A DNA stretch of 54,728 nucleotides from a virus. Of the stretch, positions 1 to 54,728 are shown one piece after another. Where the stretch lies: the IMG/VR virus record IMGVR_UViG_3300044822_000131, positions 1 through 54,728 of that record; one strand, 5' to 3'. A program made the position numbers and the translations under genes. Each line of letters starts with the position of its first letter. Position 1 is the first letter of the stretch. The notes beneath the pieces were generated by a model. The model did not search any database and had not been told where the DNA came from. It saw only the letters and a list, made by a program, of their open reading frames with translations.

Positions 1-917
1 GCGAGGTCCTGGAGCTTCAGCGGTTGCTCCTCGTCGACACGATGGGCGAGCAGTTGCGTATCGTCCGCCTTCAAGTTGACGCCGTACTTCTCGAGGATGA
101 CCGCTCGGTCGAACGCGCTCGCATTGTGACCGACGAGCAGCCCGCCTCTATCGAGGTGCAGCTTCATGGCAGAAACGCTCTCGGCGATCCGTTCCTTCTC
201 GACGATGTAGATCGTGTGGCCGTTGTCGATCCCGAGGAAGCGCACCTCGAGTTCCGGGTCGCGCAGCGGACGGGCGTTCGTTTCGATGTCGAAGCCCCAC
301 AAACCCGAATGGCCTTCAAGGTCGCATCCGTCCCATATCTTCCAGCGCACGTCGACGCGTGTGAACCCGCCGCTTAAGAGCCGCCGGCCGGTCTGGAAGT
401 CTTGAATGATCTCGCCTTCGTGCGACGGCTCCCGGAGCGCGTAGGCCGGGTGCAGCGTCGGCATGATCTTCACGGGCGCCGTCACGGTGATAGACTTGTG
501 CGGCTCCTGTACCTGCCCCCGGTACTTCGTGATCCCCGAGAGTCCCGTAAGACTCTTGAGCGCTTCGTTCCCGAGCGCGAAGATAATGTCCGGTTTGACC
601 GCTTCGATCTCGCGGACGAGATGCGGCTTGCAGGCGTTGATCTCTTTCGCCGTCGGCTTTCTGTTTGCGGGCGGTCGGCAACGAACGGCGTTCGTGACGC
701 GCACGTCCTCGCGGCGCAGGTTCGCCGCCAAGAGCAGGTGATTCAGCAGCTTGCCCGATTCACCGACGAACGGGACGCCCGAGCGGTCCTCAGAGTCGCC
801 CGGCGCTTCGCCGACGAGCATGATCGTCGCGTCCTCCGGGCCGTTCCCGTTGAGCAGCTGCCGCGTCGCCGTTTTGTAGAGCGGGCAGGCGGTACAGGTC
901 GCCTCGGATTCGTTCAC
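1..917 (-). CDS. Uracil-DNA glycosylase / family A DNA polymerase fusion, N-terminal part (variant B)
   Basis: About 305 residues are visible; the gene runs off the left edge. The N-terminal domain is a family 4 uracil-DNA glycosylase: GEAPG-x-x-ED-x-x-G-x-PFVG, TNAVRCRPP, and a late LHPAYAL motif. Four cysteines (CTAC near residue 10, RC, ACKPHL) should bind a 4Fe-4S cluster. It is followed by the start of a DnaQ-like proofreading domain with exo I (FDIET) and exo II (GHNASAFD). The polymerase palm would lie outside the window. The same UDG-Pol A fusion is known from phage SPO1-type polymerases. The start is GTG at 917, overlapping the stop of the upstream helicase (GTGA). It is clearly homologous to, but diverged from, the complete copy at 52202-54583, and probably belongs to an alternative genome version. 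Confidence 0.85.
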   Translation of the reverse strand, partial: MNESEATCTACPLYKTATRQLLNGNGPEDATIMLVGEAPGDSEDRSGVPFVGESGKLLNHLLLAANLRREDVRVTNAVRCRPPANRKPTAKEINACKPHLVREIEAVKPDIIFALGNEALKSLTGLSGITKYRGQVQEPHKSITVTAPVKIMPTLHPAYALREPSHEGEIIQDFQTGRRLLSGGFTRVDVRWKIWDGCDLEGHSGLWGFDIETNARPLRDPELEVRFLGIDNGHTIYIVEKERIAESVSAMKLHLDRGGLLVGHNASAFDRAVILEKYGVNLKADDTQLLAHRVDEEQPLKLQDL

Positions 918-2464
918 AGCGTCAAGAACTCCAAGAAGTTCGTACGGCCGCGCAGCATGACCGAGGCGTCGAGCTTTTCCTTGACGACGCGCTTGGCAAA
1001 ACCGTCCGCGCTGTTCCGCATTTGAAAGTAGGTGATATGCGAGGTTAAGCCGGGGTGCCATATCCGGCGGCGCATTTGTTCGTGCATCGCCGGGTCCATC
1101 GACCAGGAATGAAAGAAGAGGTGCCGCGCGCGGGCAAGCGAGATCCCGACGCCGCCGACTTGCTCTTGGATAACGAGCACGCGCAGCGGTGTTTCGGCCG
1201 TCGAGTTTACGTCGAAGACCGAGAGCGCTGCGAGCGTTTCCGCCTCGGGCGTGTGGCCGTTGACGAGCGCGACGCTTTCAACGCCGTGCGCGTGCCCGAT
1301 CGCTTTGCGAAGCGCTTCGCCGGCAGCCGTGAACGCGTACGAGATGACGACCCGTTGCCCCATCGCGAGCGGTTCGGTTAGGTCCGAGAGCACCGCATCG
1401 GTCTTCGTGTGATGGATCCAGCGCAGGTCGCCCGTCCCCTCGTCGACCAAGAACCCGGCGCACAGTTGCAGGTGACGCAGCAGCTTCGTGAGCCGGTGCG
1501 TGCCGTCGACCGTGAGGTAGTCTTCTGCCAGCACAGACTCTTTGGCGAGTTCGTCGTAGAGCTTGCGCGCCCGTGGCGGGAAGTCGAGGTGCCGGGTCAC
1601 TTCGTTCCACGCTGACGGGCCGAAGTAGTCCTCGGCTTTCACGCGCTGCATGATCGAGAGCACGCGTTCGTAGAACTCCCCCTCGCGTTCGAGCCGCATC
1701 CGTTCGGGTTTGTTTTGGATGAACGGGTTGAGGTGAAAGTAGCGATCCAAGAACGCCTTTTTCGAGGTCCCAAACACGCTCGGATCGAGCACGACGTACT
1801 GCGCGTAAAAACTCGGAGCGCGCTGCGGGTCGGGCGTGCCCGAGAGCAGCCGCCGATACCCGGCACCTCGGGCGAGGCGCCGCAGCGCGCGCGAGCGGTG
1901 CGCGCCGGCCGACGAGATGAGGTGCGCTTCGTCCACGATGATCGCTTCCGGCCCCCACTTGCTTAGGAGGTCCGACAGCTTCTTCGAGGACGATCGCGCG
2001 CGGGCGAGCCGAGCTTCCGCGAGCGTGCCGAACGCCTCTCCCCGGAACAGGTAGGAGTCCTGCACGCGTTCGATCCGCTCGAAGTACACGTCGAGCGTGT
2101 CGAAGTTGAGCAGCAGCACGACGGGGGTGTTGCCCGCCGCGCCCGCAATCAGATCCTCGAGGACCTCCGCGCGCCAGGCCGTGTCGCTCTCGACGAGCGG
2201 AACGTAGTACCCAATCCCGCCCCCCGCGCTCGGGCGCCGGTAGCCTGCACGTTCAAGCTCGTCCGTCCACGTTAGGCGCAGCGGATTCTTCGGTCCGACG
2301 ATGAGCGTGCGCGCCACGCCGCGTTCGTGCTGTCGGCGCACGATTGCCGTAACTTCGGCGCGCGTCTTGCCGAGGCGCGGGTCGTACGCGAGATAAAACG
2401 CAGGCGCGAAGGCCCAATCGGAATACGCGTACTCTGCCTGGTAAGGACGTAACGGTTGAATCAT
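914..2464 (-). CDS. SNF2-like superfamily 2 helicase (variant B copy)
   Basis: A 516-residue DNA-dependent ATPase of the SNF2/DEAD-like class. Visible motifs in order: motif I (DPRLGKT, near residue 30), motif II (VDEAHL, near 177), motif III (LSGTPDP), and a motif VI-like segment (EQMRRRIWHPG, near 465). It should remodel or unwind DNA in phage replication or recombination. The ATG at 2464 lies 13 bases after the stop of the PAPS-reductase gene, behind a CCAGG ribosome site. It is a distant homologue of the helicase at 3227-4654: the middle parts align (for example DYFGPSAWNEVTRHLDF against DWFGKDRYQEIHRTVEM). It lies only in the left arm that the circular assembly would omit. Confidence 0.85.
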   Translation of the reverse strand: MIQPLRPYQAEYAYSDWAFAPAFYLAYDPRLGKTRAEVTAIVRRQHERGVARTLIVGPKNPLRLTWTDELERAGYRRPSAGGGIGYYVPLVESDTAWRAEVLEDLIAGAAGNTPVVLLLNFDTLDVYFERIERVQDSYLFRGEAFGTLAEARLARARSSSKKLSDLLSKWGPEAIIVDEAHLISSAGAHRSRALRRLARGAGYRRLLSGTPDPQRAPSFYAQYVVLDPSVFGTSKKAFLDRYFHLNPFIQNKPERMRLEREGEFYERVLSIMQRVKAEDYFGPSAWNEVTRHLDFPPRARKLYDELAKESVLAEDYLTVDGTHRLTKLLRHLQLCAGFLVDEGTGDLRWIHHTKTDAVLSDLTEPLAMGQRVVISYAFTAAGEALRKAIGHAHGVESVALVNGHTPEAETLAALSVFDVNSTAETPLRVLVIQEQVGGVGISLARARHLFFHSWSMDPAMHEQMRRRIWHPGLTSHITYFQMRNSADGFAKRVVKEKLDASVMLRGRTNFLEFLTL

Positions 2465-2468
2465 AGCA

Positions 2469-2626
2469 CCTGGAAGGTCACTTGCAACTCGCGCAGAGTT
2501 CGCCGCGCTTGCCGCTCGATCGGCGTCCCGGTGGCCGGGTTCCCCAAACAGCGTGCTTTCCTTTGGCCTCCACCTCTTCTTCGAGCGCGTGGATCCGGCG
2601 CGCTACGTCAGGGTAGAACGCCTCGA
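2469..2626. repeat. Internal copy of the 158-bp repeat shared with the window end
   Basis: Matches 54571-54728 at a constant offset of 52,102. The last 127 bases (2500-2626) are identical. There is one mismatch at 2499 and one at 2477, and similarity stops at 2469. It covers the 3' end of the PAPS-reductase gene and its junction with the next gene. The exact 127-bp run looks like an assembly overlap of one k-mer; see the finding on circularity. Confidence 0.95.
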
Positions 2627-3230
2627 TGTCCTTGATTTCTTCGGCGTGGGCAAATGCGCCGCACAGACACTCGCCGCTCATATGCAGTAGCGCCGCGACC
2701 TCACTCTCGGGTACGTCGTGCTCCTCGCGGTAGGCGCGCAGGTCGTCCTTCGTCCTGTCTAGGAATGGCGCTACCCAAACCTGCGCGCCTTTGCGCCTCA
2801 CTTCGACAACGTGTCCCATGCGCCGATCGGATTCGGATAGACGTACTCCGGTTATCAGCATGATGCGATCCCGCCGGCTTGTCTTGTGCTCACGCACGAG
2901 AGCCTCGATGCAGCGCTCCTTTAGCCGTGTATACATAAAGAGATGCCCGCCAGGCCCAGGGAACCCGTGTTCTAAGACGATCGCAGCGTAGGAAACCGGC
3001 GGATGGTATTCAAGCAACGGGATGCTGTAGCGAGAGCAAAAATCGTAGACGAACTCGCGTGTCTGCGGAATCCCGATCGTAGTGTTAATGTGGACCGCCG
3101 CGTCGGCGAGGCCGGCATGCCATACTGCGTGGAGTAGCGCCGCCGAATCGTTGCCGCCCGAAAACAGGACGAACCGATGCGAGCAGTCATGCTCGGTGGA
3201 TGCGCGGGCAATTATCTCTTGGAAGCTCAT
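2478..3230 (-). CDS. PAPS-reductase-family / N-type ATP pyrophosphatase protein
   Basis: 250 residues. The adenylate-binding PP-loop SGGNDS is near residue 24, typical of PAPS reductase and related enzymes that adenylate a substrate. Cysteines in GECLCGAFA and the terminal CASCK could carry sulfur or bind metal. Such genes are common in phages and are variously linked to sulfur assimilation or base/DNA modification; the sequence does not decide which. Its ATG overlaps the stop of the upstream helicase (ATGA at 3227-3230). Its 3' end (from 2500) is the segment repeated at the right end of the window. It is followed by a helicase gene here, but directly by a polymerase gene in the right-hand copy. 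Confidence 0.8.
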   Translation of the reverse strand: MSFQEIIARASTEHDCSHRFVLFSGGNDSAALLHAVWHAGLADAAVHINTTIGIPQTREFVYDFCSRYSIPLLEYHPPVSYAAIVLEHGFPGPGGHLFMYTRLKERCIEALVREHKTSRRDRIMLITGVRLSESDRRMGHVVEVRRKGAQVWVAPFLDRTKDDLRAYREEHDVPESEVAALLHMSGECLCGAFAHAEEIKDIEAFYPDVARRIHALEEEVEAKGKHAVWGTRPPGRRSSGKRGELCASCK

Positions 3231-4654
3231 GCCGCGGCCCGCTTGCGGCGGATGCGGCCGAAGACGAGGCTCTCGCGGTCGGCGTTGCGGAGGGACTCGT
3301 GCAGGTCGCGCTTGTCGGCCAGCAGGTTCGCCACGAACGCATCGACCGTTCCGTCGACGTCGTAGTACGTGATCGTGCGCGGGACCGGGGCGCTGCCGTC
3401 GTGCTTGTAGACGCGATCCCGGCTCTGCTCGTCGTCGGTGAACGAGAACGTCCGCGAGAGGTAGGCGAGGTGCCGGCCCTCGCGCAGCGACACGCCCTCG
3501 GACCCCGACTGCATTTGGACGACGATTGCCGCCGCACCGGGGAAGGCGTTGAACGCTTCGATGTCCTCGGCCCCGGTGCCACGGCCCAAGCGGAACACCG
3601 GCATGTCAGGGAACGCGCGGCCGATCGTGGTTGCGGCCACCTCGCCTTCGTGGACGAAGCGGTGGAACACGACGATCTTCTCGTCCGACGCGACGATCTC
3701 GTCCATGTCGGCGATCAGCGCGTCGATCTTGGCCTGGTGCATCGGCAGCGCGCCCTTGGTCGTGCCGTCGGCGTCGAGGTCGGGCAGGAAGCCCGAGGTG
3801 AGCTGCTGGAGGCGCATCAGCCGCACGGCGGCGTTGGTGGCGGTGATCGTGGCCCAATCGTCGGATTGCAGGACCCACTCCTTGGCGAGCCGGTGGTAGA
3901 GGTTCCACGCTCGCGCGGGCATCTCGACCGTGCGGTGAATCTCTTGGTAGCGGTCCTTGCCGAACCAGTCCTCGCGCCGGTAGATGGCTGCCACCTTCAG
4001 GATCATCGCTTGGAGCTCGTCGACGTTGATGTGCGCCAGCACGCGCGAGGTATACATCGCGTCGCGGACGAGGAAGCGCTGGGCGAACCGCTCGTAGCTG
4101 GAGGGCCAGTTGTCGGGGTCGAGCGGCGCGAGCTGCGACCACAGCGAGCCGTAGTGGCGGGGGGCCGGCGTGCCGGTGAGGCTGCGGACGTAGGGTGTGG
4201 TGCGCGCGAGCTTGCGGTAGGCCCGGCCCCGATCGGTCGAGATCCCGCAGTAGTTGTGGCTCTCGTCGGCTACGAAAACGTCGAGCTTGGGGACGCCTGC
4301 GAAGGCGGCGTTCGCGAGCTTGTCGCGGTTGATGATGGCGACGCCCTCCCAGGCGGGGTCCGACACGAAGCGCTCGGCGGCGAGCCCACTGAGGTCGTAG
4401 AGCTCGTGCGTCGGGATGCCTGCGTCACCGAGCACCGACTTCCAGGTCGGGCCGACTTTGAGCGGCGCGGTCACGAGCGCCCGCCGCCACGCGCCGGCCC
4501 GCCGGCGCAGGGTGAGCGCTATCGCGTTCGTCTTGCCCATCCGGGGCGCGGCGTGAATCGCGCGCTTCGGGAGGTCGCCGTTGGTTTGGTCCTCGAGCCG
4601 CTCCCATTCGTAGGGGCCCTCGGGCTCGGGCAGTTTCCAGGGCCCGAGCTTCAT
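3227..4654 (-). CDS. SNF2-like superfamily 2 helicase
   Basis: 475 residues. Motif I is AAPRMGKTNA near residue 38, motif II VADESHN near 130, and the SAT-like motif III is LTGTPAP. The C-terminal RecA lobe carries VQMQSGSEGVSL and a motif VI-like QSRDRVYKHDG. A DNA-dependent ATPase for replication or recombination is the likely role. The ATG at 4654 overlaps the HTH gene stop (ATGA), and the gene overlaps the downstream PAPS-reductase gene by four bases, so the three are probably cotranslated. A second homologue exists at 914-2464. Confidence 0.85.
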   Translation of the reverse strand: MKLGPWKLPEPEGPYEWERLEDQTNGDLPKRAIHAAPRMGKTNAIALTLRRRAGAWRRALVTAPLKVGPTWKSVLGDAGIPTHELYDLSGLAAERFVSDPAWEGVAIINRDKLANAAFAGVPKLDVFVADESHNYCGISTDRGRAYRKLARTTPYVRSLTGTPAPRHYGSLWSQLAPLDPDNWPSSYERFAQRFLVRDAMYTSRVLAHINVDELQAMILKVAAIYRREDWFGKDRYQEIHRTVEMPARAWNLYHRLAKEWVLQSDDWATITATNAAVRLMRLQQLTSGFLPDLDADGTTKGALPMHQAKIDALIADMDEIVASDEKIVVFHRFVHEGEVAATTIGRAFPDMPVFRLGRGTGAEDIEAFNAFPGAAAIVVQMQSGSEGVSLREGRHLAYLSRTFSFTDDEQSRDRVYKHDGSAPVPRTITYYDVDGTVDAFVANLLADKRDLHESLRNADRESLVFGRIRRKRAAA

Positions 4655-4991: not shown

Positions 4992-6716
4992 CTATTTTTC
5001 TGCCCGTAGATACCGCATGACCGTGTTGCGCGTTACCCCGAGCGCCGCCTCGATCTCCTTGATCGAAGCGCCGTCCGCTCGCATCTCGCGCGCCTGCTCG
5101 GCCCGGCTTGCGGCGGCTTCGCCCCGGTCGACCGGCTCCTCAATGTCGCCCGCCTGCGCCGAGGAGAGCGACACCCGTTCGGGGTCGCTGGGCAGCACGA
5201 GCTCCAAGGGCACGAGCGAGCCGTCTTCGAGCCGCTCCATTTGGACCGAGCCGTCGCGGGGGTCGACGAGCACCCGCGGCTCGCCCGTGAAGTCCAGGGC
5301 GTAGCCGGGCTCCGGCCAGTTTGTCTTCTCCACGGTGAGCCGCAACGGCCCGCCCGGCTTGCGGGTGGCGCGCAAGAACACCCGCGCCACGTTTCGCATC
5401 TCGGTCGAGCCGAGGTACGCCCCGCCCTTGTTCTCGTGGAAGGTGCCCACGATCGTGCAGCCGGTGCGGGTCGCGATGTCGGCCAGCGCCCCAAGCGCCG
5501 TTCGTGCCCGCTCGGCCGCGTTTTGGCCCTTCTCGTGCTCGAAGTGGGTGTAGATGCTGTCCAAGTACAGGAAACCGCAGCCGGACTCCACCAGGGCAGC
5601 GGAAAGGGCCGTTGCGTCGCGGGGAAGTTGGAGGCTCGAGCCGACCGGGATGTGATACAGCCGCGAGAGGTCCGCGCCGAGCACGGCTGCGGTCAGCGCG
5701 AAGATTTGGAACGGCTCCTCGACCCCGACATGGCCGAACAGGCCGCCCGCCCGCGTCACTCGCGCGGCCATCCACGAGAGGAGGCGCGACTTGCCGATGC
5801 CCCCCTCACCGTAGAGCAGCACCATCTCCCCCTTGGGGAAGAACCGCTCTAGCCACCACTCCTTCGCCTCGACGACGAGGTCCGAGTCTGCTGCCACCTT
5901 CCACCCCTCCGGCCGCAGGCGCACCGCCGGCGCGTCCGGCGACCCCAGCTCCCACTTGGCTGCCGACTTCGCGATGCGGGCCGCGTCGCGGGCCGAGTAC
6001 AGCCCGCGCGCCGGGTCCTGCTCCAGCACCCCCGAGCCGATGATGCCGGTGAGCATGGCGGCGATCGCGCCCTCGGAGAAGCGCCGGGGCCCCCGTAGGA
6101 ACCCCGCGATCTTGGCAAGCTCGTTGTCGTTCTCGCCGATCGGGATCTTGTCGCGCTCCTCGAGCGCGAGCGCCATCTCAATGTCGCCGTGGTCGGTCGC
6201 CCGCTCCAGCAGCCAGTCCGGTGCGGGTGCCGGCGCGCGGTCGTCGATCACATGGTAGCGGAACCCGCCCTCGCGCAGCGAGCCGGGCCCCACGATGTAC
6301 CCCTTGGCCTTGATGTCCCCGATGACGGTCTGCCGGCCGTTCTCGTCGGCCACGACGTATTTGCAGTTGCGCCCCTCCCAGCCCGGCGGCACCGTGAACA
6401 GCGCATGCACGCCGCGCAGCGTCTTCTGCCGCCAGGTCGGCCCGAGCCGCCGCAGCTCCGCCTCGGCTAGTGGCCCCCCAACGTCGAAGTCGGCCAGGAG
6501 GAATTGTCCGTCGAGCGCGATCCCGATGTTGGTATCTTCGCCCCAATCCAAGAACATGTCCTGAGAGACCGCGGAGCGGTGGCCGTGCGCGGCCTTGGGC
6601 TCCTTGCCGGTCGAGATGCGCCCGTTGGGCATAACGTCGCCGGGCTGATAGAGATGCAGCAGCCGCGCGCCGGGCGGGAGTCCCGCACGCACGCTGCGAT
6701 TAGCCTCGGCGCTCAT
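4992..6716 (-). CDS. Bifunctional primase-polymerase / RepA-like helicase
   Basis: 574 residues from ATG 6716, which overlaps the upstream stop (ATGA). The N-terminal third is a prim-pol (archaeo-eukaryotic primase-like) domain with LLADFDVGG as the DxD metal site. The central domain is a RecA-fold ATPase of the AAA_25/RepA class: Walker A LLYGEGGIGKSRLL, Walker B CGFLYLDSIYTH. The C-terminus is an HTH (GASIKEIEAALGVTRNTVMR) that may bind the origin. One protein could thus melt, unwind and prime at the phage origin. An in-frame upstream extension to 6905 overlaps the preceding gene and is unlikely to be used. Confidence 0.85.
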   Translation of the reverse strand: MSAEANRSVRAGLPPGARLLHLYQPGDVMPNGRISTGKEPKAAHGHRSAVSQDMFLDWGEDTNIGIALDGQFLLADFDVGGPLAEAELRRLGPTWRQKTLRGVHALFTVPPGWEGRNCKYVVADENGRQTVIGDIKAKGYIVGPGSLREGGFRYHVIDDRAPAPAPDWLLERATDHGDIEMALALEERDKIPIGENDNELAKIAGFLRGPRRFSEGAIAAMLTGIIGSGVLEQDPARGLYSARDAARIAKSAAKWELGSPDAPAVRLRPEGWKVAADSDLVVEAKEWWLERFFPKGEMVLLYGEGGIGKSRLLSWMAARVTRAGGLFGHVGVEEPFQIFALTAAVLGADLSRLYHIPVGSSLQLPRDATALSAALVESGCGFLYLDSIYTHFEHEKGQNAAERARTALGALADIATRTGCTIVGTFHENKGGAYLGSTEMRNVARVFLRATRKPGGPLRLTVEKTNWPEPGYALDFTGEPRVLVDPRDGSVQMERLEDGSLVPLELVLPSDPERVSLSSAQAGDIEEPVDRGEAAASRAEQAREMRADGASIKEIEAALGVTRNTVMRYLRAEK

Positions 6717-6934
6717 ACGTCGCGCCTTAAGGACGCGATAAACGCCGTTGTCTCCGCTAAGGCTGCCATGTACTCTGCCGAAGGTTGTTTGTCGCGCTCC
6801 TGGCCTGGGCGGTATGCGGCCCAAATCCGATCCCGGAGCGACTTCGGAAGCATGAACCAATGCCTCTTGCACATATGCATCCTCGGCGGGACCGGCACCT
6901 CGCACCCTGGGGCATGGCAGTGGTGTTCGCTCAT
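6713..6934 (-). CDS. Small Cys/His (zinc-finger-like) protein
   Basis: 73 residues. HCHAPGCEVPVPPRMHMCKRHW resembles the Cys/His box of small phage and prophage proteins with a downstream SLRDRIWAAYRPGQ segment. It probably binds one zinc ion; function unknown. It is joined to both neighbours by ATGA overlaps and is the gene just upstream of the primase. Confidence 0.75.
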   Translation of the reverse strand: MSEHHCHAPGCEVPVPPRMHMCKRHWFMLPKSLRDRIWAAYRPGQERDKQPSAEYMAALAETTAFIASLRRDV

Positions 6935-18642: not shown

Positions 18643-20313
18643 GTGAACGACGACTTGCGGGGGTTGCTCGACGACCTCGACCGCGCTACAATAATGCCCG
18701 CGACTCCTTTCGCTACGCCGCAGCCGCCCCCCGTGTACTCCGAGGGGTGGCTGTATCGTTTCTGGAGGGATGATTGGGGCAGCCCGGTCTCTCCCCAACC
18801 GCACTGCGAGATGGCCGACTACATTCAATCGGCGCTCGGCGACTGCTCGTTCTCGGGCAGCGAGAAGAAGCTCGTCATGCTCGGCGTCCCGCGCAACACG
18901 TTGAAGACGACCAACGTGTCGGAAGCGACGCCGGTCGCCGTTCTCACCAAGAACCCGAACGCGAAGATACTGCTCGACGGCTTCCGCCATTCGATCAGTA
19001 AACTCCGGCTGCGCGCGATTCGCCGCAAGCTCGAACGCGACGTCGTCTTAGATCAGAAATACGGCACGATGGCTTGGAAGCCGATGTTCCGCGAGGATAT
19101 TTGGAACGCGGCCGAGATCCGCATCACGGCCGCGACCGACCTCGGCGTGCGCGAGTCGTCGATCGCGACGGCCGGCGTCGACTCCTCGGCGACGTCGCAG
19201 CACTTCGACCTCATCATCCCCGACGACTTGGTCAACGAGATCAACTCACGCACGCAGGACTCGCGCGAGCGCGTCTACGAGCATTTGATGGATCACATGG
19301 CGATCCTCAATCCCGGCGGCGTGATCCTCATGGTGTTCACGTTTTGGCATGTCAACGATGCCTACGCGCGCATCATCAAACTCGACGAAGCGCGCGAGCG
19401 CCGCGGCGAGCGGCCACTGTGGCGCAAGATGATCCGCTCGTGCTATGACGGCCCGAACGGCCTCTACTGCCCGACCCGCCTTTCCTACGAGCACCTCGAG
19501 GAACAGCGCGAGCTCATCGGCCCCTACCGCTTCGCCGCGAACTATTTGATGAAGCCGATCGCGGATGAGGACAAGACCTTCAACATGGACGCGCTCAAGA
19601 TGCGCCCGTTCAAGTTCTTCTCCACCGCCGAGCAGAGCTTCGGCGGCGTCATCCGCACCGAGAACGACGCGCAGTACATCGTCGAGACCACGATCGCGTG
19701 GGATCCGATGGGCCGCAAGGTCCGCAGCACCTCCGACTCCCACGGCATCACGGTCGTGGCGACCGACGTCGACGACAGGTGGTGGATACCCGAAGCGCTC
19801 TCAATCAAGACGACGCCCGAGTCCATCATCAACCGGATGTGTCTGCTCATTCAAATCTACCGGCCGTGGACGGTGTCGATTGAGGACGTCGTGGGCCAGG
19901 GGCTGTGGCTCGACATGTTAGCCGACGAGTGCGTGCGGCGCGGTATCGGCGTCGGGTTCACCGAGTTTGCGACGGGCGGCATCCCGAAAGAGCAGCGCAT
20001 CATTCTGCTGCAACCGCGCTGGGCGCGCGGCGGCATGATCCTTCGATCGAAACCGGATGCGCCCGACGAGCCGATGCACAAGGAGTTTTACAACCAACTC
20101 GACACGTTTTCGCCCGGCGGCATCGACCACGAAGACGTCCTCGACTCCCTGGTGCAGCACCTCCGGCTCACCCGCCGGCCCGACATTCGCGCGCTCCCGC
20201 GCGGCGAGAGCAACCCGGTCGACCCCGAGTACGCCGCCTTCCGTAAGCGACAACAGCAGGATGATCCGGGGATGCCGCTCACCGGCCGGTTCGGGACGAC
20301 CTGGACACCGTAG
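18643..20313 (+). CDS. terL: Terminase large subunit
   Basis: 556 residues from GTG 18643, ribosome site AGGAG. The ATPase has an atypical Walker A (GVPRNTLKTT near residue 84) and Walker B FDLIIPDDL near 188. The RNase-H-like nuclease begins with TIAWDPMGRK near 350 and continues to VSIEDVVGQGLW and GIDHEDVLDSLVQ, whose acidic residues should bind metal. It drives DNA into the prohead and cuts concatemers. The order terminase, accessory genes, portal fits a tailed phage, but 9 kb separates it from the portal. Confidence 0.9.
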   Translation: MNDDLRGLLDDLDRATIMPATPFATPQPPPVYSEGWLYRFWRDDWGSPVSPQPHCEMADYIQSALGDCSFSGSEKKLVMLGVPRNTLKTTNVSEATPVAVLTKNPNAKILLDGFRHSISKLRLRAIRRKLERDVVLDQKYGTMAWKPMFREDIWNAAEIRITAATDLGVRESSIATAGVDSSATSQHFDLIIPDDLVNEINSRTQDSRERVYEHLMDHMAILNPGGVILMVFTFWHVNDAYARIIKLDEARERRGERPLWRKMIRSCYDGPNGLYCPTRLSYEHLEEQRELIGPYRFAANYLMKPIADEDKTFNMDALKMRPFKFFSTAEQSFGGVIRTENDAQYIVETTIAWDPMGRKVRSTSDSHGITVVATDVDDRWWIPEALSIKTTPESIINRMCLLIQIYRPWTVSIEDVVGQGLWLDMLADECVRRGIGVGFTEFATGGIPKEQRIILLQPRWARGGMILRSKPDAPDEPMHKEFYNQLDTFSPGGIDHEDVLDSLVQHLRLTRRPDIRALPRGESNPVDPEYAAFRKRQQQDDPGMPLTGRFGTTWTP

Positions 20314-46717: not shown

Positions 46718-48973
46718 GTGGGATTCACGCCGCCTGCCCTAACGTCGAAGGTGCCGCAACCGCCGCCGGCGGCACCGAGCGGCGACTTCGAGCCGCCCCC
46801 ACCCACCGCCAAGGTCGATGGGGGCGACTTCGTGCCGCCCCCGCTCACCCCGCCGCCACCGCAGGGCACGTTCGCCGCCGCCAAGGCGAAGCTCGCAAAA
46901 ATCTCGGCGGCGACGAAGCCTGCCGAGGAGGCGCTGCGGCGCAACTGGTCCTACGCGGTCGGGCACCCGATGGAAGACGTCTTCGACGTTCTGGGCGGCT
47001 TCCAACGTACCGCGGGCGGCATCGCGGCGGCGGTCGAGCACCACGACACCCTCAAAGAAGCGCTCGACCGGGTAGCGCACGACGTCTTCCACCCCGGCGA
47101 CCTCTCGGAGCGGGAGCGGCAAGAGCCGGTCGAGGGCCGCGGGAGCACGCCCGACGATGCGACGTTCCGGGACACCGAGAGCATCCGCGCCCTGTTCCAT
47201 GCTCCGACCCACGAGGCGATCGACCACTTCGTCGCGACGCACGTTCCCGAGCAGCTCCGTGGCGCGGCCGGCACGTTCCTCAAGGGCGGTGAGGACATCG
47301 CGCTGCAGACGATCTCGGATCCCACCACCTACGTCGGCGGGTTTGCCCTCAAAGGCGTCTTGGGAGCGGCCAAGATCGGCGTGAAGGGTCTGCAAGCCGT
47401 CCACACGATGACGCAGGCCGCACAGGCCGCGGGAGCGCTCAAATACATGCCGTGGCTGCCGACGCTCACCGGCATGTACGGCAACCTCGCCGGGGCCGCG
47501 GTTAAGGCGATGCGGAACCCGCTGTTCCGGCCGCGCGCCGAGCTCGACCAGGTGCTCAACGAGGACGGCCGGGCCGTCCGCATGCAAATCGAAAGCAAGT
47601 GGGACCTCATCTCATCGAAGCGGCACGCCTTCGACCGGACGGCGGTCGACAGCACGATCGACACGGTGACGCGCGGTCGCGCCTACGCTCAGGCGCTCGG
47701 CATATCCCCCAAGCGGGTGACGAACATCGTCCGCAAGCTCGTCAACGGCACGCCCGAGGAGCGGCTCGCGGATCTCAACAAGATGCGCCAACACCTCTAC
47801 GACCGCGACGTCGCCAAAGAGACCTCAACGCACCTCGCGCAGTACGGCGGCTACAAGCCGGGCACGCTGCCGATGACGGCAGACGAATGGCGGAAATGGG
47901 CCAAGGCGAACCCCGACAAGCCGATCAACATGGGTGCGTTCGAGCAGGTCGCGCGGGTGCCGAGGGCGCTGATGCAGGCGAAGCTCTTTCTCAACCCGCT
48001 CCCTCACGGCCTTAAAAACGTCGGCGAGCTTTCGTTTTTAGCCGGCGGGCCGCGGGTCGTCTTCGACGGCATCCGAGCGATGCTCCCCGGCGGCGTCGAT
48101 GCGGCGATGAAGGACCGCATGGCGCGGATCGGCCTTGAGCCCGCCTACACCCACCAAGTCTCGAACGTGCTGTGGTCGAAGGTGATCCCCGGCTACGAAG
48201 CGCTGGCTGGCGGGCTTCAAGATGCGATGGGCCGGATGGAGCAGTCCTGGCGCGCGTCGCTCTTGAAGCGCCTCGACCGCAAGCTCGGTAAGTCGAACAA
48301 CGACCACGACGAGTATCTCAAAGCGTACATGGTCAACAAGCAAGTCGGCGACTACAAGAACGTCAACGGGTTCGTCAAGTTCTTTCAGGCGATCGGCGGG
48401 CCGTGGGTCGCGTTCCGCTTGGGCATCGTGCCGCAGGCGCTCATCCGCGCGGTGGCCGAGCATCCCGACCGGGTCGAAGCGCTCGCGCGGCTGCAAGAGG
48501 ATCCGCAGCGCAACCGCTCGGCCTACGGCCAGCGCGAGAATACGCTCGAGGAGGGCGGGCCGATCGACGACGCAACGAAGCTCGCGGTGGACCCGGTTAA
48601 GTTCATGAAGTCACCGGCCTCGGCCGGTATCGCAGGCCAAGTCGACGAGTCGCACGACGCGCTCGGCTACCAACCGCTCGGGGAGGTCGCCGGCGAGTTT
48701 GCGGGCGCTTTCAACCCGCTCGGCGGCGTCGGCGACGTCGCGGAGGCGATCGCCGGCCGCGGCATGCCGGGACCGCTCAAAGGCGGCGAGCCGACCTACC
48801 AGAAGCAAACCCTGGCCGACCGGCTCGTCACCGCCACCCTCGCAACGCTTGCGATCTACTTCCACGCGAACCCGAGCAGCGCATCACAGACCTACGAGCG
48901 CCGCGAGCAGCAGAGCGTGTCCCGCAAGTCGCATGGCTTCGTCGAGGATTTTCTCCAGGGCGCTACGCGCTAG
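46718..48973 (+). CDS. Large internal virion / ejection protein
   Basis: 751 residues from GTG 46718, directly after the previous stop. Pro-rich N-terminus, long helical body (ALKYMPWLPTLTGMYGNLAG, GQRENTLEEGG), an amphipathic GEFAGAFNPLGGVGDVAEAI near the end. Last rightward gene; may form part of the trans-envelope DNA channel. No lysozyme motif seen. Confidence 0.65.
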   Translation: MGFTPPALTSKVPQPPPAAPSGDFEPPPPTAKVDGGDFVPPPLTPPPPQGTFAAAKAKLAKISAATKPAEEALRRNWSYAVGHPMEDVFDVLGGFQRTAGGIAAAVEHHDTLKEALDRVAHDVFHPGDLSERERQEPVEGRGSTPDDATFRDTESIRALFHAPTHEAIDHFVATHVPEQLRGAAGTFLKGGEDIALQTISDPTTYVGGFALKGVLGAAKIGVKGLQAVHTMTQAAQAAGALKYMPWLPTLTGMYGNLAGAAVKAMRNPLFRPRAELDQVLNEDGRAVRMQIESKWDLISSKRHAFDRTAVDSTIDTVTRGRAYAQALGISPKRVTNIVRKLVNGTPEERLADLNKMRQHLYDRDVAKETSTHLAQYGGYKPGTLPMTADEWRKWAKANPDKPINMGAFEQVARVPRALMQAKLFLNPLPHGLKNVGELSFLAGGPRVVFDGIRAMLPGGVDAAMKDRMARIGLEPAYTHQVSNVLWSKVIPGYEALAGGLQDAMGRMEQSWRASLLKRLDRKLGKSNNDHDEYLKAYMVNKQVGDYKNVNGFVKFFQAIGGPWVAFRLGIVPQALIRAVAEHPDRVEALARLQEDPQRNRSAYGQRENTLEEGGPIDDATKLAVDPVKFMKSPASAGIAGQVDESHDALGYQPLGEVAGEFAGAFNPLGGVGDVAEAIAGRGMPGPLKGGEPTYQKQTLADRLVTATLATLAIYFHANPSSASQTYERREQQSVSRKSHGFVEDFLQGATR

Positions 48974-49666: not shown

Positions 49667-50228
49667 TCGTCGCCGCCTTCGCAGGTTTCGCGGCTGCCGC
49701 CGGCTTCGCCGCCGCGCCGATCATGCGGTACTTGGTACGGATTTTCTTGTTGCCTTCCTCATCGAAGGCGTCGACGTACTGCCCCTCGGCGTTCTTTTCT
49801 TGCACGACCTCGCCGATGGTTTTGAACTTGATGCGGGGGGTGGTCGCGCGCTTGATTTTGGGCCCGACCATGCGCGCGACGGCGTTGATGTCCTTCTCGG
49901 TCGGGTTGCGCTCCCAATGGTAGTCCTTGGAGATGGGCTGTCCGATCGCGTTCATGTCGGCGATCAGCTCCATGACGCCCTGCGCGTAGAGCTTGCCGTT
50001 TTTTCCGGTGACGACTTTGAGGAAGTAGACCTTGGTGAACGGCGTCCCTTCGTACTCGCCTTCGAGCACCTCGAACCCGATCGACAGGTACGGCGTCTTG
50101 TTCGCGTTGTTGGAGGTCTTGCACTCGATGCTCTTGGCGACGCCCCAAAACTCTTTGCCGGGCGGGATGATGTCGCCGAAGGACGAGATTTGGTCTACGG
50201 TTACGGCTGATGTATCGTCTAAACTCAC
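49611..50228 (-). CDS. SSB-like protein (DUF669 type)
   Basis: 205 residues from GTG 50228 (GTGA). The OB-type core (FWGVAKSIECKTSNNANKTP, LSIGFEVLEGEYEGTPFTKV) is followed by an Ala/Lys/Pro-rich linker and an acidic tail DDTPDEDLSDEEKAALL, as in single-strand-binding proteins that recruit partners by the tail. It is coupled to the RecA-like gene. Confidence 0.7.
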   Translation of the reverse strand: MSLDDTSAVTVDQISSFGDIIPPGKEFWGVAKSIECKTSNNANKTPYLSIGFEVLEGEYEGTPFTKVYFLKVVTGKNGKLYAQGVMELIADMNAIGQPISKDYHWERNPTEKDINAVARMVGPKIKRATTPRIKFKTIGEVVQEKNAEGQYVDAFDEEGNKKIRTKYRMIGAAAKPAAAAKPAKAATNDDTPDEDLSDEEKAALL

Positions 50229-51016
50229 TTTGCTATTGCTTTCTTCGTAGTATTGTTTGTGGTGATAAGTTGGTCACTGGCTGTCGCCCCGAGCGACGTC
50301 TTACCGGCACCGGGGTGCCCGTAGATCGTGAGCACGGAGCTCTGTTTGCCGAGCACCTTCCAGAGCTTCGGCAGGGTCGGGTCCGGCAGCGCCTTCGGAA
50401 TCTTTTCCGAGAGCTCCCGCGAAACGTGGAACTTGGCAGTGGCCGATTCGGTGCGGCGCAGGTAGAGCACGCGGGTCTCGCGCGCGAAGATCGTGTTGCC
50501 TTTCTCATCGACCACGGGGTCGGTGAGCGACACCAAGCGGAAGACGTCCGAGGACGATGCGATCAGCGCCTCGACGAAGGCGGGGTTCCCTTGCGGTCCC
50601 GCCATCTTGAGGCCGGCCATCGCGTCGCGGACCTCGTCCTCGTGGGTGAGCACGATGACATGCGCGCCGCGCGCGCGGAAGTTGTTGATGCCGCGCATGA
50701 CGAGCGACGTCGCCATGTTGTAGACCGCCAAGTATTCTTTGTCGCCGAAGAACTTGTTGATCTTGCTGGGGTCCCACAGCGCGTCCTCGTTGCGGTTGCC
50801 GAGCATGCGGTCGATGCGGGTGGTGGTGAGCAACGCCGAGGCCGTGTCGAGCATGACGTTGTCGCCGGGCTCGAGCGTTCGCATGAGGTCCTGGCGGTGC
50901 CGATCGAAGTCGGCGAAGGTGGCGCACGGCAGGTTGATGATCCTGCCGTCGTCGATGTAGTCCTGGATAGAGTCGGTGCCGTTCATGTCGGCGTCGAGGC
51001 GATAGAACTTACTCAC
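50225..51016 (-). CDS. RecA-like (Sak4/AAA_24-type) ATPase with C-terminal P-loop
   Basis: 263 residues from GTG 51016 (GTGA). The parts of a RecA/AAA_24 domain occur out of order. The N-terminus begins at strand 2 (KFYRLDADMNG), Walker B NVMLD is at about 53-57, HVIVLTHED follows, and only at the end comes strand 1 and Walker A, TIYGHPGAGKTSLGATAS (P-loop 233-240, Lys239). Normal relatives have Walker A near the N-terminus. The frame is open throughout, so this is a circular permutation, not a frameshift. Sits between an SSB-like and a RecB-like gene, so a recombinase or annealing ATPase is likely. Confidence 0.75.
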   Translation of the reverse strand: MSKFYRLDADMNGTDSIQDYIDDGRIINLPCATFADFDRHRQDLMRTLEPGDNVMLDTASALLTTTRIDRMLGNRNEDALWDPSKINKFFGDKEYLAVYNMATSLVMRGINNFRARGAHVIVLTHEDEVRDAMAGLKMAGPQGNPAFVEALIASSSDVFRLVSLTDPVVDEKGNTIFARETRVLYLRRTESATAKFHVSRELSEKIPKALPDPTLPKLWKVLGKQSSVLTIYGHPGAGKTSLGATASDQLITTNNTTKKAIAK

Positions 51017-52020
51017 AGTTGAACCATCTTTCTGTCTTTCCAGAACGCCTCGACGGCGGCACGGCCGGGCACGCCGTAGACGGCTTGAACCGCGTCGATT
51101 ATTTTGAACCGGCGCTCCTCGATGAGCCAGTCGACGCGCGGATCGTCGAGCATCGTGCGGGGGTCGACCCGATCGGCCGGGTTGTAGGGGTCGGTGAGCC
51201 GGTCGAGCTCATCGTCCGAGAGCGTGCCGAACCAGTCGGCTTTGCAGATCGGTTTGAAGAAGCACCCGCCGCAGACGCCGTTGCCGTACTCGCGGTAGTT
51301 GGGCACGCGGTAGGTGCGCCGATGGCGGAGCGTTTCCTGAATGTCGAGCGCCACGTTGTAGAGCTCGCGGCGCGTGGTCTCACGCTCGAACTCCGACATC
51401 TCGAGCTCTTGCGGTTGGGGGTAGAGGTCCTCCTCATCCCAGGGCACCCAGGTGGCGACGGACTCGCCGCGGACCTTCTTGGTGAGGAACCGCCCGAGCT
51501 CTTGGCGAGCGTAGACCCAGCGGAACTTGGCCGGCATCTTGAAGTTGTCTTCGGCGATCGTGAGGTAGACGCGCGCTTGGAAGTCCATGTCGACGTCGGG
51601 CGTCGGCGCTTTCAGGAACGTCTTGTAGTCCTGGACGACGGCCTTTTTGTAGTCGGGGTCGTAGTCGTCTTGGTCGTCGTAGTAGACCAGGTCAAAGCTC
51701 CCGCGAACGTGGAAGCCCGGCGCGATCTCGGTGAAGTAGCCGCGCTCGATGGAGAGGATGCGGTTGGGTTCGGGGAGCGGGTGCGCGGCGAGGTAGGCCG
51801 CGGCCACCTCGTAGGCGGGCTCGCCGTCTGGTTGCGGAAGCTCGCCGTACTCGGCCGCGTGCGCCATGTAGGCGTGAAACTGAGAGCCGAAGTTGACGAT
51901 GCCGGGGACGTCGTCGCGTTTGGGTTGGTAGTGAAGCATCGTGTCGAACTCGAACATCTTTTTGCAGCGCATGAAGTTCTGCACCGCGGTCATCGACAGG
52001 ACGAGAGGCATCTCGCTCAT
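51013..52020 (-). CDS. RecB/Cas4-like PD-(D/E)XK nuclease
   Basis: 335 residues from ATG 52020 (ATGA). An early Cys (FMRCKKMFEF) and a late CGGCFFKPIC cluster give four Cys for a 4Fe-4S centre as in Cas4/AddB. The nuclease core has RGSFDLVYYDD and VVQDYKTF, which provide the D and D-x-K residues. Expected to trim DNA ends for recombination. A longer in-frame start at 52125 overlaps the previous gene and is rejected. Confidence 0.8.
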   Translation of the reverse strand: MSEMPLVLSMTAVQNFMRCKKMFEFDTMLHYQPKRDDVPGIVNFGSQFHAYMAHAAEYGELPQPDGEPAYEVAAAYLAAHPLPEPNRILSIERGYFTEIAPGFHVRGSFDLVYYDDQDDYDPDYKKAVVQDYKTFLKAPTPDVDMDFQARVYLTIAEDNFKMPAKFRWVYARQELGRFLTKKVRGESVATWVPWDEEDLYPQPQELEMSEFERETTRRELYNVALDIQETLRHRRTYRVPNYREYGNGVCGGCFFKPICKADWFGTLSDDELDRLTDPYNPADRVDPRTMLDDPRVDWLIEERRFKIIDAVQAVYGVPGRAAVEAFWKDRKMVQL

Positions 52021-52295
52021 TCGCCCCATCCCTCGGCGTAGATCAGCTCGCCGTCTTTGTTGAAGTGCAGGATGACGGTTGAGGCGTAGGAGCCAGGCTG
52101 TCCGTAGACGAGCTCGGCAGCGCATCCTTTAATGGAGGTCGCGAAGCGGCGGTCCCAAGGCTGCGACGACCGCTCCCCGGTCGCTTGACGATCCTCAAAT
52201 GTTATGAACTCGAGCTGACGGGAGCTATCTTTCTGCTCGCAGCGTTGTAAGGCGTGTTTGAATTGTTCGTATTCGGAGTTGATTGAGAATTGCAC
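52017..52295 (-). CDS. Hypothetical protein
   Basis: 92 residues from GTG 52295, behind AAAGGA about 6 bases away. Sequence (QFSINSEYEQFKHALQRCEQ, STVILHFNKDGELIYAEGWG) is a small alpha/beta protein. It overlaps the polymerase 3' end by 94 bases. Family not recognised. Confidence 0.65.
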   Translation of the reverse strand: MQFSINSEYEQFKHALQRCEQKDSSRQLEFITFEDRQATGERSSQPWDRRFATSIKGCAAELVYGQPGSYASTVILHFNKDGELIYAEGWGE

Positions 52296-54583
52296 AATAT
52301 TCCTTTCGCTTCTTGGTATGTTATCTCGACGTCGAGCGGCACGGTTGGGATGACGTTGAAGTGCTCCCGCAGTACTCGGAGCGGCTCGTCGATCATGCAC
52401 CGCCGAATCGTAGGCTCGGCCGCACGGGCCTCGTCCATCGAATCGAACTCGAACTTGATGTCATCGTGGACGAAGTCCACCATCGGCAGGTTTTCCCGGT
52501 TGCACGCACCGAGCGCGATCTCCGCGATGTCTGCACAAAAACCTTGCACCTGCATGTTACACGCTTCGCGCAGCGCTTCCCTCTTTTGATTCGCGTTTAG
52601 CAGGGCAAAATCGCCGAAGTTGCGTCGCCGTCCGGTGACGCTCTCGACGTAGCCGTGCTCGATGAGTTGACGACGCGTGCGAACGAACCAACGCTTCCAA
52701 TCCGGCATCGCACGGTGCCACGATCGGTGAACGTGTTCTCCCTCGGCGTCGGTGAGAAAGATTCCCATCTCGCGCGCGGCGTAGGACACCACCGTTGCGC
52801 CGACGCCGAGGAACTCTTGCGAGAAGTTGCCCGACTTCGCAACCTGCCGCTGCTGCTTCGTGACGTCGGCTTCGGTGATCCCCTCGTAGAGATGCGGTGC
52901 GAACCAGGTGTGCGGGTCCCAATTGGGATCGCGCGCGAAGTTTGCGATGACGGTGCGCTCGTTTGCCACGAAGGCTCCCATGCGAAACTCGATGGCCCGG
53001 TAGTCGGCGTGGACGAGCACCTTGCCGGGGGCCGGCGCTTTGATTTCCTTGAGCTCGCGGTCGAGGTTCTGCGTGCTCGGGTCGGTCGCCGAGGTGCGGC
53101 CGGTGAGCGTGCGCCACACGGTGTAGTGCGGGTGCGCCCGGCCGTCGCCCTCGTTCGTGATACGTTCGTAGGGCAGGATGTAGGTCGACATGCGCTTCTG
53201 TACCTCGCGGTACGCGAGCATCGCGCGCGCGAAGGGATGGTTGATGTAGACGAGCGCCTCCTTGTCGACGCAGTCCTTGCCCGTCTTGGTGAGCCCGAGG
53301 TCGAACCCGCAGTGCCGCAGCACCGCCGCAACGTGGTCGTTGCTGTTCGGATTGAACGCGATCGTCTTCACCTTCGTCTTGAGCTGCTTGTCGAAGACGC
53401 GCGAGTCGAACCCGGCCCGGTCGAGCTGCCAATAGACCTCGTTGAGCCGAAAGTCGAGCAGCTCCTCAGTCTTGGCTTTGTGCTTGGCGACGGCCACGGG
53501 GTCGATGTAGATGCCGCGCGCAGAGATAGCGTCGAGGGCGAGCCGCGCCGGCCGCATCATGTGGTCGACGATCTTGATGCGGTCGCCTAGCAGTTCGCGC
53601 GCCTTGTGGTAGAGCTTGATTGTCATCTCGGCATCGCGCGCGTTGTAGGCCGCGAGCTCGGGCGAGCCGAGCTTCGCGCCGTCGCGCTCCTCCTTCCAGC
53701 CCCGCACGCCGAGGTATTTGGTACAGAGCGGCTCGAGCCCAAGCGGCTGCGTTTCGTCCAAGAGGTAGCACAGCGCGGCGGTATCGTAGTCGGAACGCAG
53801 GCCCGTCATACGGTCGTCAAAGTCCCAGCCGAAGTGCGACACGATCGTGAGCGGCGGCATCGCTTGCAGCATCTCCTTCGCGAACCGCGACGACACGAAG
53901 GTGACGGTCCCGTTGGAGATGGCGGCTTGCGTCATACGGTCGGTGATAGCGCCGGTCTCGTCGTAGGTCTCGATGTCGTAGGCGACAACATCGCCCTCAA
54001 ACGGCTTTCCAGTCCAGGGCAGCCAGTTCGCCTTGACGGGCGGGATGCTGCGGTCGCGGATCTTGCGGAGGTCGCCGGTCACGACACCACGCGCGCTCGG
54101 GCCCTTAGAATACAGCACCCAAGCCGGGTGGTAGGTGGCCCACACGCCACAGTCGTGGTTGAAGGCGGCTTTGAGCTTCCACTCCTTGCCGCGTGCGTTC
54201 CCGATCGACACCGGGCCGATCAGCGTCTTGACCGCCACCTCGCCGAGCGCGATGATGACCTGCGGGCGCACGCGCCGAATCTCGGTCGCGAGGTGCGTCG
54301 CGCAGGCCGCGGCCTCGGCCGGCAACGGCGCGCGGTCCTTGGGCGTCGCGCACTTGACGGCGTTGGTGATGTAGACCTCATCCGGGTCGAAGCCTGCATC
54401 GCGGAGCATGACGTCGAGGAGCTTCCCCGACTTGCCGATGAACGGCAGCCCCTCGAGGTCCTCGGTGCGGCCGGGGTTCTGCCCGACGAGCATGACGGTG
54501 GCGCTCTGCGGCCCCTTGCCGCCGATGCCGACCGAGAGCGCGCTTCGGTGGAGCGGGCAGGCGGTGCAGTCCTGGAAGCTCAC
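52202..54583 (-). CDS. Uracil-DNA glycosylase / family A DNA polymerase fusion
   Basis: 793 residues from GTG 54583 (GTGA with the PAPS-reductase stop; an upstream ATG 54649 would overlap that gene). Domain 1: family 4 UDG, Cys 6, 9, 78 and 94 for 4Fe-4S, GQNPG 34-38, YHPAW about 151-155. Domain 2: proofreading exonuclease, exo I D203/E205 (YDIET), then SHFGWDFDD and YNARDAEM. Domain 3: palm with motif A HADYRAIEFRMG, motif B RQVAKSGNFSQEFLGVG, motif C VDFVHDD. The replicative enzyme. After EITYQEAKGIL a 30-residue Ser/Asn-rich tail overlaps the next gene. Confidence 0.92.
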   Translation of the reverse strand: MSFQDCTACPLHRSALSVGIGGKGPQSATVMLVGQNPGRTEDLEGLPFIGKSGKLLDVMLRDAGFDPDEVYITNAVKCATPKDRAPLPAEAAACATHLATEIRRVRPQVIIALGEVAVKTLIGPVSIGNARGKEWKLKAAFNHDCGVWATYHPAWVLYSKGPSARGVVTGDLRKIRDRSIPPVKANWLPWTGKPFEGDVVAYDIETYDETGAITDRMTQAAISNGTVTFVSSRFAKEMLQAMPPLTIVSHFGWDFDDRMTGLRSDYDTAALCYLLDETQPLGLEPLCTKYLGVRGWKEERDGAKLGSPELAAYNARDAEMTIKLYHKARELLGDRIKIVDHMMRPARLALDAISARGIYIDPVAVAKHKAKTEELLDFRLNEVYWQLDRAGFDSRVFDKQLKTKVKTIAFNPNSNDHVAAVLRHCGFDLGLTKTGKDCVDKEALVYINHPFARAMLAYREVQKRMSTYILPYERITNEGDGRAHPHYTVWRTLTGRTSATDPSTQNLDRELKEIKAPAPGKVLVHADYRAIEFRMGAFVANERTVIANFARDPNWDPHTWFAPHLYEGITEADVTKQQRQVAKSGNFSQEFLGVGATVVSYAAREMGIFLTDAEGEHVHRSWHRAMPDWKRWFVRTRRQLIEHGYVESVTGRRRNFGDFALLNANQKREALREACNMQVQGFCADIAEIALGACNRENLPMVDFVHDDIKFEFDSMDEARAAEPTIRRCMIDEPLRVLREHFNVIPTVPLDVEITYQEAKGILCNSQSTPNTNNSNTPYNAASRKIAPVSSSS

Positions 54584-54728
54584 TTGCAACTCGCGCAGAG
54601 CTCGCCGCGCTTGCCGCTCGATCGGCGTCCCGGTGGCCGGGTTCCCCAAACAGCGTGCTTTCCTTTGGCCTCCACCTCTTCTTCGAGCGCGTGGATCCGG
54701 CGCGCTACGTCAGGGTAGAACGCCTCGA
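54571..54728. repeat. Terminal copy of the 158-bp repeat
   Basis: Matches 2469-2626; 54602-54728 (127 bases) are identical, the preceding base differs (C against T), and a second mismatch is at 54579. The contig stops exactly at the end of a 127-base match. Confidence 0.95.
54580..54728 (-). CDS. PAPS-reductase-family protein, C-terminal fragment
   Basis: The last 49 codons of the gene seen complete at 2478-3230, ending GELCASCK, then TGA at 54580-54582. Truncated by the window edge. Directly followed by the polymerase GTG, whereas the left copy is followed by a helicase. Confidence 0.9.
   Translation of the reverse strand, partial: EAFYPDVARRIHALEEEVEAKGKHAVWGTRPPGRRSSGKRGELCASCK

Follow-up and report, generated by a model that had tools for sequence, protein, structure and literature searches.

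The viral contig analysed here, hereafter called the window, has a length of 54,728 bp and ends in a sequence which it also contains close to its start, and this raises the question whether it represents a single molecule, or a circular genome with a piece of different origin attached to it. The last 127 bases (54602–54728) are identical at 127/127 positions to 2500–2626, with the repeat reaching the last base of the window, while the first base to the left of the repeat differs between the two copies (C at 54601, T at 2499). This pair is the sole direct repeat of at least 30 bp in the window, with the second longest one measuring 20 bp, and approximately 4e-63 exact repeats of 127 bp would be expected by chance. 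The similarity extends 31 bp further to the left (2469–2499 versus 54571–54601, 29/31 identical, mismatches at 2499 and 2477) and then breaks off sharply at 2468/54570. The full homologous tract consists of 158 bp with two SNPs, and is located over the 3' end of a gene predicted to encode a PAPS-reductase-like protein, with both paths encoding the same C-terminus and stop codon of this gene. The exact length of 127 arises because the first SNP bounds the repeat on one side and the end of the contig on the other. The coordinates of all features are given in Table 1.

We compared both ends of 53 IMG/VR contigs for exact overlaps, which were found in 14 of them, and 127 was the only length to recur (5/14); the other lengths (65, 91, 97, 99, 103, 120, 123, 141 and 144) were each seen in one contig. 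One of the five contigs with a 127-bp overlap is G017, a relative of this phage. Common metaSPAdes runs also have 127 as their largest k, and the COBRA study, in which metaSPAdes runs with a maxK of 127 are listed, describes shared ends of maxK length for contigs which metaSPAdes or MEGAHIT broke off at a branch (PMC10914622). The window resembles these cases in having an exact 127-base overlap at a contig end where two paths meet, but differs from them in that incoming branch and closed circle lie on a single contig, which makes the overlap end-to-interior rather than end-to-end. The mismatch directly adjoining the overlap is what is expected of a branching de Bruijn contig. The 127-base repeat itself is very probably an assembly product of an already known kind, and the suggestion of the initial annotation that it marks a node of a k=127 graph is supported by both the recurrence of this length and the COBRA data; we infer that k=127 was used in assembling the sample from which the window derives.

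Two further contig ends are of note. In G008 (IMGVR_UViG_3300043788_000228) bases 1–119 are repeated exactly at 47551–47669 and are followed by imperfect similarity, and a repeat may have determined the contig end in this case as well. Contig L011 (G009) starts with an extended series of pentapeptide-like coding repeats (ADLSGANL..., positions 1–350), which probably caused the assembly to break there.

Table 1. Location of the repeat copies, the two sequence parts and the main predicted genes in the window
Feature	Position	Strand	Remarks
First copy of 127-bp node	2500–2626	+	In context within the intact PAPS-like gene
Second copy of 127-bp node (contig-end overlap)	54602–54728	+	Within 3' part of the PAPS-like gene; identical to 2500–2626
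Branch-side 31-bp homology extension	2469–2499	+	Last PAPS codons, stop, 9-bp spacer matching UDG-PolA_A start at 8/9
Circle-side 31-bp homology extension	54571–54601	+	Last PAPS codons and first UDG-PolA codons
Circular phage genome, 52,102 bp (well supported)	2500–54601		Terminal repeat and gene order in relatives
PAPS-reductase-like (PP-loop) accessory gene, 250 aa	2478–3230	-	PF01507, PHROG 424 (moron/AMG); 3' end common to both paths
SNF2-type helicase (circle)	3227–4654	-	PHROG 62; overlaps PAPS start
Primase-polymerase / AAA helicase-like protein (circle)	4992–6905	-	
Terminase large subunit (circle)	18643–20313	+	
Sak4-like AAA ATPase (circle)	50225–51016	-	PHROG 124
PD-(D/E)XK (RecB-like) nuclease (circle)	51013–52020	-	Downstream of polymerase
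UDG-exonuclease-DNA polymerase A fusion (circle)	52202–54583	-	GTG start overlaps PAPS stop
Side branch, other phage lineage (probable)	1–2468		Protein identities, trees, gene content of relatives
SNF2-type helicase (branch B), 516 aa	914–2464	-	60% identical to L113, 30% to circle SNF2
UDG-exonuclease-PolA fusion, N-terminal part (branch B)	3–917	-	Truncated by window start; 58% identical to L113, 35% to circle protein

Connecting 54601 to 2500 gives a circular phage genome of 52,102 bp, and the comparison with related sequences makes this closure well supported. The order primase-polymerase, SNF2 helicase, UDG-PolA, PD-(D/E)XK nuclease and Sak4, which is split between the two ends of the window, is intact in single contigs of six relatives (G008, G010, G013, G014, G017 and L121). 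These six contigs come from other metagenomes, and together with that of G012 (described below) their gene order supports the closure proposed in the initial annotation. G010 is collinear with the entire circle and runs unbroken from 54 kb through the join to 3 kb, while its structural genes continue across its own contig ends, and relatives are of similar size and show circular closure (e.g. G017, with 51,152 bp and its 127-bp overlap). The circle encodes a terminase, a head-tail adaptor-like protein and an internal virion protein, and the strands of those genes which have homologues agree with the two transcription blocks that had been proposed for it, with the switch located somewhere between about 9.6 and 14.8 kb. 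A DNA search of isolated phages gave no match to the window.

The contig as delivered would also allow a linear reading, in which one molecule of 54,728 bp or more carries two polymerase modules and a duplicated stretch of 127 bp. However, the repeat stops exactly at the end of the contig, its length is the modal one of assembler overlaps, the window begins and ends within genes, and two UDG-PolA genes are found in none of the relatives, which close as circles without an extra piece. One real linear molecule was rejected on repeat length, repeat position and gene order, and is in our view extremely improbable.

If the circle is complete, the remaining sequence has to be accounted for. Following the PAPS stop codon, the branch contains a SNF2 helicase gene and then the UDG-exonuclease part of a polymerase gene, with the two genes overlapping; because it begins in mid-gene, the branch is incomplete and does not amount to a full alternative locus. 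The initial annotation had already set positions 1–2499 apart as a side branch off the circular molecule, which our data refine to 1–2468, but its interpretation as variation within the population at one locus did not hold as far as allelic variation is meant. The amino acid identity between branch and circle is only 35% for the UDG-exonuclease and 30% for SNF2, which rules out plain allelic variation, and the nearest kin of the branch is a different phage, L113 (IMGVR_UViG_3300049216_000331, record G012), which was found using a profile of UDG domains. In phylogenetic trees the branch proteins pair with those of L113, apart from all A-type (circle-type) relatives, with support values of 98/97 for the UDG-exonuclease and 100/100 for SNF2. 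G012 carries its own terminase and head protein, and the main virion ORFs of the window gave no match when tested against G012 at E<=1e-8. The low identities, the tree pairing with L113 and the unmatched virion genes of L113 argue that the branch belongs to another lineage rather than representing an allelic form of the circle locus.

The L113 genome has the order primase-polymerase, SNF2 (60% identical to the branch protein) and UDG-PolA (58%), which is the same order as in the circle, and lacks the PAPS gene: upstream of SNF2 it has other sequence than the PAPS-like gene of the branch. A further difference is a small ORF of ~75 aa between SNF2 and UDG-PolA in L113 (G012:38470–38700), which is absent from the branch, where these two genes overlap. 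The tetranucleotide composition of the branch is within the range of the circle, with 9/50 circle pieces deviating as much or more, so that the branch does not stand out by its composition. Exact searches of IMG/VR with the 127-bp node and the first bases of the window gave no neighbouring contig of the same graph, nor was a contig with the continuation of the branch or with its own upstream PAPS gene found in IMG/VR, although records very close to the window may be missing from the set searched, and a single-protein search for close relatives of the branch SNF2 gave none in viral or genome contigs. The lack of the PAPS gene in L113, the unremarkable composition and the negative contig searches speak against the explanation that follows.

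The explanation which best fits these findings, and which we consider probable, is that the window represents a lasso-shaped path through a k=127 graph, with the branch coming from a different phage lineage that was present in the same sample and shared a recently exchanged PAPS gene with the circle. The node at 2500–2626 would have had two incoming paths (from the circle via the C at 54601, from the branch via the T at 2499) and a single outgoing path, and the assembler would have entered by the branch, gone round the 52,102-bp circle once and stopped upon reaching the node again. In the branch lineage, a near-identical end of a PAPS-like gene would be followed immediately by SNF2 and UDG-PolA genes of that lineage, this shared gene end would result from recent exchange of the PAPS gene between the two lineages, and the branch molecule would depart from the circle sequence somewhere to the right of 2626.

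The join could in principle also be a sequencing or library chimera without biological counterpart, as chimeric joins occur generally in metagenome assemblies (PMC10914622), with nothing specific to this window. However, the branch has its own two SNPs (2499 and 2477) within the shared tract, the node of 127 bases plus the differing base must have had read coverage, and homologous ends are not expected from random ligation; we regard a chimera as very unlikely. The same two observations, i.e. the SNPs of its own and the implied read coverage of the node, indicate that a PAPS-like gene end is probably present in the DNA of the branch.

A biological alternative is that the branch is a living recombinant which swapped its polymerase module at the PAPS stop codon and coexists with the parental genome in one sample. 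This would be a minority variant of the phage represented by the circle, in which PolA was replaced in place, from its first codons on, by the SNF2-UDG-PolA genes of the L113 lineage, resulting in the order circle-type SNF2, PAPS, branch-type SNF2 and branch-type PolA (SNF2_A-PAPS-SNF2_B-PolA_B). The path taken by the assembler does run from the branch into the PAPS gene and onwards, as in the window itself, and the main support comes from homology which continues past the PAPS stop codon: in the branch spacer, 8/9 bases match the start of UDG-PolA_A (chance about 2e-4), possibly a vestige of a circle-like arrangement, although the match is equally explicable as an ancestral stretch common to both lineages. 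There is also precedent in the crAss-like phages, where DNA polymerase genes have been displaced in place by those of distant clades (PMC7886860). These likewise show two distant versions of one replication gene occupying the same position beside a shared neighbour, whereas the branch in the window may belong to another phage altogether. On the other hand, such a recombinant needs two SNF2 helicases per genome, while searches with the branch SNF2 yielded one match in each of the family genomes examined and none of the relatives examined shows two, and the SNF2 and PolA of the circle go together in its relatives, as does the pair of the branch in L113. With these arguments on both sides we judge a recombinant of this phage to be unlikely, and the coexistence of such a variant with its parent in this sample doubtful.

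For the preferred reading of a lasso-shaped path with a branch from another phage, the properties of the PAPS-like gene are of relevance. The gene is missing from 8/8 relatives compared in full, and both its GC content (0.604) and its GC3 (0.697) are below those of the neighbours on either side, while its own relatives are scattered over many phages as well as actinobacterial and other bacterial genomes. The low GC3 and the absence from the eight relatives are as expected of a putative mobile accessory gene, and the lack of the gene in L113 would fit a recent insertion. Judged from the sequences, a recent exchange of the PAPS gene between two phages would be the simplest account of the shared gene end, and two phages with very different replication proteins but a near-identical PAPS-like 3' end in one sample would mark such an exchange. 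In a separate alignment of PAPS-like relatives, the C-terminal cysteines (around GECLCG and LCxSC) were invariant in 6/6 sequences, which suggests a metal or Fe-S site.

For the database record this means that the deposited 54,728-bp contig very probably consists of a complete circle of 52,102 bp with ~2.5 kb of foreign sequence in front, which corrects the record, and that the additional polymerase and helicase genes ought to be left out of the gene set of this phage.

Finally, the replication module itself has been described in part from other viruses. In the circle the UDG-exonuclease-PolA gene adjoins the PAPS gene, and viral PolA genes with SNF2- and RecB-like neighbours are known (PMC6302109), in which a family A polymerase is flanked by a SNF2 helicase upstream and a PD-(D/E)XK nuclease downstream, as found here. 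The polymerase in our sequences differs from these systems by its N-terminal uracil-DNA glycosylase domain, and the word uracil is absent from that paper. Both lineages have a phage family A polymerase with a UDG domain fused to its N-terminus. The N-termini of the polymerases are not conserved among the sequences compared, and the label exonuclease is based on alignment and a DxET motif rather than a Pfam hit. Among isolated phages, those of Pseudomonas and Serratia contain full-length UDG-PolA relatives with an identity of about 24–27%.
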